64,000 nucleotides of DNA. Source: Kocuria varians (GTDB lineage: Bacteria; Actinomycetota; Actinomycetes; Actinomycetales; Micrococcaceae). Positions 19,553 to 47,926 of the stretch are shown piece by piece. Each line of letters opens with the position of its first letter. Within the stretch, counting starts at the first letter, position 1. The stretch lies in assembly GCF_006539885.1 (NCBI RefSeq), contig NZ_BJNW01000007.1, positions 1-64,000 on the forward strand, in the 5' to 3' direction. The notes under the pieces are model-generated. The model did not search any database. It was not told the origin of the DNA and saw only the letters and a list, made by a program, of their open reading frames with translations. A program made the translations under genes and the position numbers.

Positions 19553-19654
19553 TCCGCAGGTGCGTGCCGAACGGGGGAACACAACCGCAGATGCGGGCGG
19601 GCCGGGTGCGTTCGCGGGCAGGCGTCGTCGACAGGGCACCCCTCACGTGCTGCT

Positions 19655-19712
19655 CAGCGGAGTAAAGGCACGCAACGGCCCGAATTTCTGCGTTTGCTCC
19701 GTTAGTGCACGC
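19655..19712. repeat. intergenic repeat family C, copy 1
   Basis: GCGGAGTAAAGGCACG, then CAACGGCCCGAATTTC, then TGCGTTTGCTCCGTTAGTGCA. It is about 85% identical to copy 2, which lies 210 bases further on in the same orientation. The whole gap 19553-19970 contains only the two repeats and GC-rich sequence with a GACGGCGCC hairpin; no gene is seen. Confidence 0.75.
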
Positions 19713-19864
19713 TGCGCGCACCGCACCCTGCCCGCTGCACGGGGCGCGCACCTCCCTCGCCCGCACAGCACGACGGCGCCGCTCCGGGTTTCCCCCGAGC
19801 GACGCCGTCGGCGCGCGACGCCGGGCGAGGAGTGCCCCGCCCGGCGTCCCTCTCGTGCTGCCTG

Positions 19865-19919
19865 GCGGAGTAAACGCACGCAACGGCCCGAATTTCTGCG
19901 TTTACTCCGCTAATGCACG
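19865..19919. repeat. intergenic repeat family C, copy 2
   Basis: A perfect 14-bp stem GCGGAGTAAACGCA (19866-19879) with its complement at 19898-19911. Between them is CGCAACGGCCCGAATTTC, shared exactly with copy 1. It is followed by GCTAATGCA. Confidence 0.8.
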
Positions 19920-19970
19920 CCGCGCGGTACACGCCTCACGCGGCCCGCCACGCCGCACCCCGCCCGCCGC

Positions 19971-29176: not shown

Positions 29177-29283
29177 CCCGAAAACCGGCCGCCCCGCCGT
29201 CGTCGTCCCCTACTCCGCCCCATCCTCACCCCGCCCCACCCGGCGCCGTCGCCGCCCCTGCCGCCCCGCGCCATCACCCCGCC

Positions 29284-29338
29284 GCATTTACTCCGTTAGT
29301 GCAGATTTCCGCGCCCAAAACTGCATTTACTCCACTAG
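29284..29338. repeat. intergenic repeat family C, copy 3
   Basis: GCATTTACTCCGTTAGTGCA, then GATTTCCGCGCCCAAAACTG, then CATTTACTCCACTAG. It is about 90% identical, in inverted orientation, to copy 4 on the other side of the DUF559-like gene. It follows a C-rich stretch 29195-29280 with no gene. Confidence 0.8.
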
Positions 29339-29360
29339 ACAGCCGCCGCGGGCACCAAAA

Positions 29361-30371
29361 TCAGCCCAGAGCCCTGCGCAGGCGAGCCAGCCATGCCTCT
29401 CGCCGGACCGGTGATCGCAGGTCGTCCCAGGTGAGGACCGTGACATCCCATCCGGCGTCCCTCAGCAGCGACAGGCGGTGCATCTCGTCCCGGTACTGCC
29501 CGACCTCCTGGGCATGGACGGCACCGTTGTACTCGAGAGCGATCCGAGCACCCGGCCATGCCAGGTCCAGCAGATAGCTGCGGCCCGCCACCGTCACACG
29601 GTGGTTGAGCATGGGCTCAGGCAGCCCGGCCCGCACCACGATCAGACGGGTGAGCGTCTCGGCCGGGGACCAGCAGGGCGCCCGCGCGTCCTGCCACGCA
29701 CGTCGCAGCCGGATGACACCTCGGGCGGCAGGAGGGAGCATGCCCAGGTTCTCCTCCGCCTGCTCGCGGGTGAACACCACCGGAGTCCATGTGCCGGTGA
29801 CGACGAAACGCGTGGAGATCAGAGCATCCAAGCACGCCGTGATTCGCCACGGGGGAAGGGTCAGCGCCAACCGCGCCATGGACTCCAACGGGTGTGCGAT
29901 CCGGCTTCCCCACGGCCCCTCCAGGGGAGCCAATCCATGGGACTTGGCGATCCTCATACCGTCCTGCTGAGACTGTGCCCGGTCCCCGCTCCACAGCAGG
30001 TCCACGCGTTCCCCGGCCGCCGTGAGCTCTTGATTGGCCGGTTCCGCGATCCCTCGCCCACGCGACCGAGCTGCGGGTGAGAGCACACCCTGCACCCACG
30101 CCTCCGTACCGCCCACGGGTAACCGCAGCAGCTCCAGCCCTCGTACACCGCTCAGCAGCAGCCCCGCGTCCGGACCGCAGAGATGCTTCTGCAGCAGAAC
30201 GCCTCGTTGGACGGGCGTGAGCGGCGCGTCCTGGAGCGCCCACAATCCTCGGGCCAGCCGTTGAACCCCCGGGGCTTTGAGCAGCTGGGACGCTCGCCGG
30301 CCCGTCTCCGCGGTGGTCACCACGGAGGGCTCCGGAGGGAAGGGCACGGGTTGCTGCAGATACATCTCCAT
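29361..30371 (-). CDS. DUF559-type protein with AbiEi-like N-terminal half
   Basis: 336 residues. The C-terminal part (about 265-336) has the restriction-endonuclease-like pattern LDLAWPGARIALEYNGAVH and WDVTVLTWDDL, typical of DUF559 / very-short-patch-repair nuclease relatives (PD-(D/E)XK fold). The N-terminal half contains ASQLLKAPGVQRLARGLWAL and resembles the winged-helix part of AbiEi-like antitoxin proteins common in actinobacteria. Function is unknown; nuclease activity is inference. The gene is bracketed by inverted copies of repeat family C and has a slightly different base composition, suggesting that it moved as a unit. Confidence 0.65.
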   Translation of the reverse strand: MEMYLQQPVPFPPEPSVVTTAETGRRASQLLKAPGVQRLARGLWALQDAPLTPVQRGVLLQKHLCGPDAGLLLSGVRGLELLRLPVGGTEAWVQGVLSPAARSRGRGIAEPANQELTAAGERVDLLWSGDRAQSQQDGMRIAKSHGLAPLEGPWGSRIAHPLESMARLALTLPPWRITACLDALISTRFVVTGTWTPVVFTREQAEENLGMLPPAARGVIRLRRAWQDARAPCWSPAETLTRLIVVRAGLPEPMLNHRVTVAGRSYLLDLAWPGARIALEYNGAVHAQEVGQYRDEMHRLSLLRDAGWDVTVLTWDDLRSPVRREAWLARLRRALG

Positions 30372-30540
30372 GTGCGGACTCTAGGGAGAAACGTGGCGCC
30401 GTGAACGACGTTGTCCACAGCCTGCGGCACTGCGCCGACGTCGCGCCGACGCCGCCGGGGCAAGCTCGTGCCGCAGACGGGCCGGTCCAGAGCACCGCCA
30501 ACCGCTCCGAGGCCGCTCTCGAGTGGAGTGAGGTGCTGCC

Positions 30541-30596
30541 TAGTGGAGTAAATGCATATTTGGGCCCTGGAATCTGCACTAACGGAGTAAATGCAG
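30541..30596. repeat. intergenic repeat family C, copy 4 (inverted relative to copy 3)
   Basis: TAGTGGAGTAAATGCATATT, then TGGGCCCTGGAATC, then TGCACTAACGGAGTAAATGCAG. Outside the core, similarity with the flank of copy 3 continues in the motif CCATCACCCC. The gap 30372-30730 holds this repeat, a G-rich tandem repeat and the promoter of the alpha-glucosidase gene. Confidence 0.8.
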
Positions 30597-30639
30597 CGGG
30601 GTGATGGTGGCAGGGCGGCGGGACGACGGCGCGCGGCAG

Positions 30640-30680
30640 GGTGGGGTGGGTGGGGTGGGTGGGGTGGGTGGGGTGGGGTG
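30640..30680 (+). repeat. G-rich tandem repeat (GGGGTGGGT units)
   Basis: Four to five units of about nine bases, GGGGTGGGT, with G runs of three and four separated by single T. Such a sequence can form a G-quadruplex on the plus strand. It ends 50 bases before the alpha-glucosidase start. Confidence 0.85.
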
Positions 30681-47806: not shown

Positions 47807-47866
47807 CGGACGACGACGCCGCCGCGCCCCTGAGCGCGCGCGTTCCTGCCGCCCCCTACCCCCGGT

Positions 47867-47926
47867 GCAATTACTCCGTTAGTGCAGATTTCGAGCCCAA
47901 AATCGGCAACTACTCAGTAATTGCAG
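47867..47926. repeat. intergenic repeat family C, copy 5
   Basis: TGCAATTACTCCGTTAGTGC, then AGATTTCGAGCCCAAAATCG, then a degenerate TACTCAGTAATTGCA. Between the convergent permease and ABC-ATPase genes; the rest of 47807-48064 has a GACGACGACGCCGC copy and no gene. Confidence 0.75.

Follow-up and report, generated by a model that had tools for sequence, protein, structure and literature searches.

In actinobacteria, nuclease-like genes of the DUF559/MTES_1575 type and the repeats on either side of them appear to form a two-part system of class-wide occurrence. One part is a resident, usually single-copy nuclease gene; the other is its own family of ~60-bp repeats, palindromic or built as double half-sites. 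The arrangement is REPtron-like with an unrelated enzyme. This reading is given a probability of roughly 0.6, and the link between gene and repeat is itself held with high confidence. The focal locus lies in a 64,000-nucleotide stretch, referred to as the window, of a genome of the genus Kocuria (G000, 2.84 Mb). In a preliminary description, a gene between inverted repeats at this locus had been interpreted as a non-autonomous mobile cassette with defence or toxin cargo.

The focal locus and its protein

The sole gene between the two repeat arms is an ORF on the minus strand (29361..30371, 336 aa); the neighbours are genes for exonuclease III and an alpha-amylase and an unassigned 380-aa ORF. 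The 5′ (upstream) cognate repeat copy is located at 30535..30602 and carries two half-sites in direct orientation, 39 bp apart. The 3′ (downstream) copy, at 29276..29343, is inverted relative to the upstream copy and 90% identical to it (BLAST, E 1.5e-18), and ends 17 bp past the stop codon. Inverted copies of ~55 bases with ~90% identity had been reported around the gene, and these were confirmed by the sequence, a repeat finder and BLAST. Arm similarity extends outward, giving 97-nt arms (29247-29343 and 30535-30631) at 81% with the repeat finder and 84% over ~100 bp (~97-101 bp, E 1.2e-23) with BLAST. The shared outward flank mentioned earlier, CCATCACCCC, was recovered as part of this extended similarity, which is an inverted continuation of the arms and no direct repeat. 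A target-site duplication, proposed as a check on mobility, was not seen beside 29284 or 30596 upon inspection of the sequence. A short tandem GGTGGGGTGGGT tract is present at 30640-30680, between the upstream repeat and the amylase gene.

Each focal arm contains two half-sites TGCATTTACTCCRYTAG, the starts of which are 39 bp apart, and this half-site has 9 matches in the window versus 0.04 expected. The half-sites of the focal repeat are direct, not inverted, so a simple hairpin model fails for some families. The repeat family earlier labelled family C is genuine and recurs at a distance from the gene (19654-19705, 19862-19913 and from 47866 on), with three solo repeats between other genes of the window. 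The first solo copy is intergenic (19650..19709), its half-sites being divergent and 39 bp apart; the second (19858..19917) is located 208 bp from the first and has the same geometry. The third, at 47860..47926, is intergenic and palindromic (TGCAATTACT...AGTAATTGCA). No gene is evident between the two solo copies in the region 19640-19920, and the two may mark where a gene was lost, or may simply be a tandem arrangement.

The focal protein is predicted to consist of an AbiEi-like DNA-binding/antitoxin-fold module (about residues 12-230) followed by a Vsr/EDxHD homing-endonuclease-like nuclease domain (about residues 235-336). An AlphaFold2 model (pLDDT 91) was compared with known structures using VIA-align. 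Residues 235-336 aligned with the catalytic domain of I-Bth0305I (Z 11.4, rmsd 2.6, 95 residues) and the nuclease domain with Vsr (Z 9.3); residues 12-230 aligned with AbiEi 6y8q (Z 8.0, rmsd 5.7, 163 residues) and the N-terminal part with Rv2827c of M. tuberculosis (1zel, Z 7.0). The nuclease-like C-terminus and AbiEi-like N-terminus proposed from the sequence were borne out by these alignments. In a family alignment, E238, D269, E280, N282, H286 and E296 form invariant columns. A plain Foldseek search of the model gave no match at E <= 0.001, so the fold assignment rests on VIA-align and the conserved residues; a sequence search against solved structures returned nothing.

Pfam analysis of the focal protein and its family pointed to DUF559/MTES_1575 and to no Y1 or HUH domain; the fold is Vsr-like. 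For the focal protein both matches were below the cut-off (DUF559, E 0.17; MTES_1575, E 0.022); in the wider family, MTES_1575 was detected in 16 of 22 members and DUF559 in 8 of 22. The DUF559 label is weak in Pfam for the focal protein, yet it is supported by the modelled structure. PADLOC AbiEi profiles matched 13 of the 22 family members, the focal protein not being among them. Since defence profiles matched only the AbiEi DNA-binding part, or matched weakly, the notion of defence or toxin cargo was not supported. At the focal locus, no AbiEii (DUF1814) toxin gene was noted beside the gene.

The locus was compared in close relatives; among the names of relatives of this genome are K. rhizophila, K. 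marina, K. tytonis, K. coralli and K. soli. The gene occupies the equivalent place, between exonuclease III/the 380-aa ORF and the amylase gene, in six genomes (G012, G013, G025, G026, G009 and G017), in two of which (G012, G025) a contig end leaves one side of the locus only; a more distant version is found there in G007 and G019. In several genomes the gene is broken: it is split in two frames in G009, interrupted in G017 and G019, and contains an internal TGA in G025. Within each of G000, G013, G025 and G009, one arm matches the other, and the arms vary between species; those of G009 are nearly identical despite the broken gene. G007 and G019 carry a different repeat at this locus. The comparison proposed earlier, a search for an empty site, yielded three genomes (G008, G001, G002) without gene and repeats, in which junctions were imprecise and neither a clean junction nor a duplication was found. 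In K. tytonis (G026; L101:2200-6040), an insertion of ~4 kb separates the nuclease gene from the left repeat; judged by eye, it carries an HxlR-like regulator as well as a transposase-like ORF, which includes an integrase-type DDE region.

Repeats bracketing the gene family across actinobacteria

DUF559/MTES_1575-type genes are present in 164 of 198 genomes and 82 of 91 genera sampled, with up to ten or so per actinobacterial genome. Matching repeats on both sides were found for 104 of 136 near-full-length family genes (76%), in a set that spans Kocuria to distant actinobacteria and includes orthologues, so that the effective n is lower. For 91 genes, the own other flank was the best match out of 136. 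Among mismatched flank pairs, 384 of 18,360 (2.1%) had a match, and 7 of 138 neighbouring ORFs (5%) were bracketed (Fisher p 2.7e-37 versus the family genes). For the 46 family genes of Kocuria, flank-to-flank matches (score >= 35 within 300 bp) were obtained in 65%, versus 3% of mismatched pairs and 2% of random window positions. Class-wide, 52 of 70 genes, the focal gene being one of the 70, were bracketed; most of these class-wide genes represent separate genera or distant paralogues. Bracketing was also found in other Micrococcaceae, Brachybacterium and Intrasporangiaceae, and about a quarter of the family genes have no detectable bracketing repeats. Chance bracketing, tested with mismatched flanks, random window positions, neighbouring ORFs and shuffled repeats, was rejected.

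The repeats are gene-specific. A single repeat family around all DUF559 genes was therefore rejected: of the expectation that other DUF559 genes would be bracketed by the same repeats, the architecture stood and the identity of the repeats did not. Most repeats are palindromes with a median span of 63 bp (IQR 55-70), and 165 of 208 copies passed a self-palindrome score versus 44 of 272 outer-flank control segments. In several genes, the loop sequences of the two flanking copies agree as well. The ratio of inverted to direct orientation of the two copies was 51:53, which fits palindromes and not terminal inverted repeats. The downstream copy follows the stop codon at a median of ~10 bp, and the distance from the end of the upstream copy to the start codon is typically ~89 bp.

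Bracketing depends on the nuclease domain. Among AbiEi-like genes, 1 of 14 without this domain was bracketed versus 8 of 12 with it (p 0.003), in a small sample for which the score allowed late start codons. The AbiEi part alone as the source of the repeats was rejected on this comparison.

Dispersed palindromes and their co-variation with the gene

Twenty gene-specific repeats and 20 dinucleotide shuffles were searched against nine genomes; the matches listed included more than 100 for true repeats and not one for a shuffle. The L139 family of Kocuria G021 gave 55 half-site matches, versus 0 for a reversed-pattern control. Nearly all of these matches form elements with half-site starts 40 bp apart, and the solo copies number ~25; the loop varies, and palindromic pairing persists, in places through paired changes. 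The solo copies that were checked lie near 3′ ends of genes, their intergenic position being judged from flanking sequence, and one is followed by GGGGGTTTT. About half of the L139-family solo palindromes are located on one 200-kb contig (C13), an uneven distribution. A toxin-antitoxin-like pair of Gp49/DUF891-like and HTH_3 genes (L202:578-1323; G021:C1:213.6-214.3k) lies between two L139-family solo palindromes; most of a corresponding stretch is found in G023, and G010, G011, G018 and G020 lack it.

The genes themselves appear stationary. Paralogues within a genome are 31-54% identical among the members compared, which indicates that the gene, unlike the dispersed palindromes, does not copy itself. 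With one family member as tblastn query, matches were obtained in 5 of 72,556 plasmid and 1 of 50,697 phage records. These figures argue against the proposed mobile cassette, as do the position of the gene at one place in most close Kocuria and the difference in repeats from gene to gene. Most solo copies are common to G002 and G019. Clean empty sites for solo copies were sought: G020 has an empty site where G021 carries a copy, and G023 lacks one of the G021 elements, with junctions blurred by divergence. One genome per species was used, a sampling too coarse to date insertions.

Gene and palindrome vary together between species. The genes L131, L137, L139 and L255 are syntenic, with neighbours 91-98% identical, and have four different palindromes; the nucleases of the first three are ~46% identical. 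At one intergenic site (L200), the palindromes of G021, G023 and G018 belong to three families, each matching the gene of its own genome. At this site, G020 has a 35-bp spacer without palindrome, and G010 and G011 have plain hairpins; plain hairpins are also found at other conserved sites in some species. At a further site (L201), the G018 palindrome is of the G021 type, in disagreement with the local gene; the palindromes of G023 at both L198 and L201 resemble that of the K. soli gene. These mismatches indicate that palindrome turnover is not perfectly concerted, and strict concerted evolution of all solo sites, broken by L201, was not upheld.

Proposed system and rival explanations

A more specific reading, to which we give an even chance, is that of an undescribed, class-wide actinobacterial system: a Vsr-like nuclease fused to an AbiEi-like module would keep up its own family of ~60-bp palindromes, spread them through the chromosome and rewrite them. 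Such a system would be a REP/RAYT analogue that evolved independently from a homing-type nuclease, specificity and sites changing together. We infer that the protein recognises and mobilises the palindromes, and that the focal protein binds and cuts its repeats and thereby spreads them. In the most probable mechanism, the protein, perhaps best pictured as a dimer, would recognise two half-sites via its AbiEi-like module, and the nuclease domain would nick or cut at or near the palindrome. Repair or strand transfer could then place new copies of the palindrome elsewhere between genes, in many cases where a 3′-end hairpin already exists; alternatively, a resident palindrome could be converted to the current sequence, while the gene itself would stay put. 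Confidence in any particular cutting chemistry is low. Unregulated double-strand cutting at every site is hard to reconcile with the tens of sites that stand intact in a single chromosome.

A search of the open-access literature found no description of DUF559 with palindromes, nor of what DUF559/MTES_1575-type genes do. If the system is REPtron-like, RAYTs are not the sole route to enzyme-linked palindrome families in bacteria, and such systems would have produced many actinobacterial hairpins between genes, some of which have been taken for terminators. As each gene has its putative recognition site printed twice beside it, ~100 enzyme-site pairs are directly testable. They would provide a natural series in which a DNA-binding nuclease and dozens of chromosomal sites shift specificity together.

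It is unlikely that the palindromes are simply AbiEi-type operators, bound by the protein upstream to repress its own gene and at the other copies, downstream or solo, to regulate or insulate further genes, with the nuclease acting elsewhere and no mobilisation. The typical upstream position before the start codon would suit such a role, and the N-terminal part aligns with AbiEi and Rv2827c, which repress their own promoters via pairs of 23-bp inverted repeats (PMC7319586). However, downstream copies closely follow the stop codon, the checked solo copies lie near 3′ ends and not at promoters, AbiEi-like genes without the nuclease lack two-sided repeats, and copies multiply and switch sequence between species. 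Quite improbable, too, is a terminator model, in which ordinary recombination homogenises palindromes that end transcription in both directions, and the nuclease gene tolerates or borrows them. Solo copies do lie near 3′ ends, where they replace plain GC-rich hairpins at conserved sites, one continuing into GGGGGTTTT, and some dispersed palindromes may serve as terminators. The nuclease-fusion-specific bracketing, the separate family of each gene and the upstream copy are nevertheless left unexplained, and loop sequences, too, agree between flanking copies in several genes.

The cassette originally proposed, with terminal inverted repeats around a defence or toxin gene, the two moving together through the nuclease in cis or in trans, is improbable. 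It draws on the inverted bracketing at the focal locus, the relation of the nuclease fold to a homing endonuclease and the joint lack of gene and both repeats in G008, G001 and G002. Against it stand the single location in most close relatives without duplication, the lack of near-identical gene copies within a genome, repeats that differ per gene, the rarity on plasmids and phages, and the balance of inverted and direct copies. Very improbable is a self/non-self guard of a restriction-like or addiction type, whose nuclease would be inactive or positioned at genomic palindromes and attack DNA lacking or carrying them. Very fast divergence is typical of conflict systems, and it is seen here (~46% between syntenic orthologues versus 91-98% for neighbours), in a nuclease fused to an AbiEi antitoxin-like module; yet defence-system profiles gave only AbiEi-type and weak matches, there is nothing unusual about the focal neighbours (exonuclease III, the 380-aa ORF, amylase), and mobile elements seldom carry the family.

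The REPtron-like reading was compared with known systems. A homing endonuclease gene breaks its own recognition site, whereas here, if the palindrome is the recognition site, two intact copies flank the gene, and tens more are found in the G021 chromosome; the likeness to I-Bth0305I and other Vsr-type (EDxHD) homing endonucleases lies in the C-terminal fold, in which the family has conserved acidic and His residues. IS200/IS605 elements likewise have a nuclease gene between two hairpin-like ends, but here no HUH nuclease is present, no gene mobility was seen and the ends vary per gene. RAYT/REP hallmarks are a single-copy gene, its own flanking palindromes, dispersed copies and enzyme-repeat co-evolution (PMC3116915, PMC8266576). 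The present family shares with them the non-mobile, single-copy chromosomal gene flanked by its own palindromes (in 104 of 136 cases), an intergenic scatter of cognate palindromes, the possible presence of several distinct gene-repeat pairs in one genome, and the joint evolution of enzyme and repeat. It differs in having a Vsr/EDxHD-type nuclease with an AbiEi-like module instead of an HUH/Y1 transposase, repeats of ~63 bp versus REPs of 20-50 nt and not built on GTAG, counted copies in the tens versus hundreds, and an actinobacterial setting. RAYTs were sought as alternative mobilisers, and no Y1_Tnp domain was found in 10 Kocuria genomes; because of this and the unrelated enzyme, the system is a RAYT analogue and not a member.

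The type IV toxin-antitoxin proteins AbiEi and Rv2827c resemble the focal protein in the N-terminal fold. With its two 23-bp inverted repeats separated by 13 bp, the operator of Rv2827c measures ~59 bp in all (PMC7319586), close to the median repeat span found here; the present family differs in its added nuclease domain and in repeats that occur on both sides and dispersed. Some nuclease-fusion proteins (L225, L431, L440 and other class-wide members) match Pfam AbiEi_1 or PADLOC AbiEi, and fusions of this kind may be annotated as type IV antitoxins.
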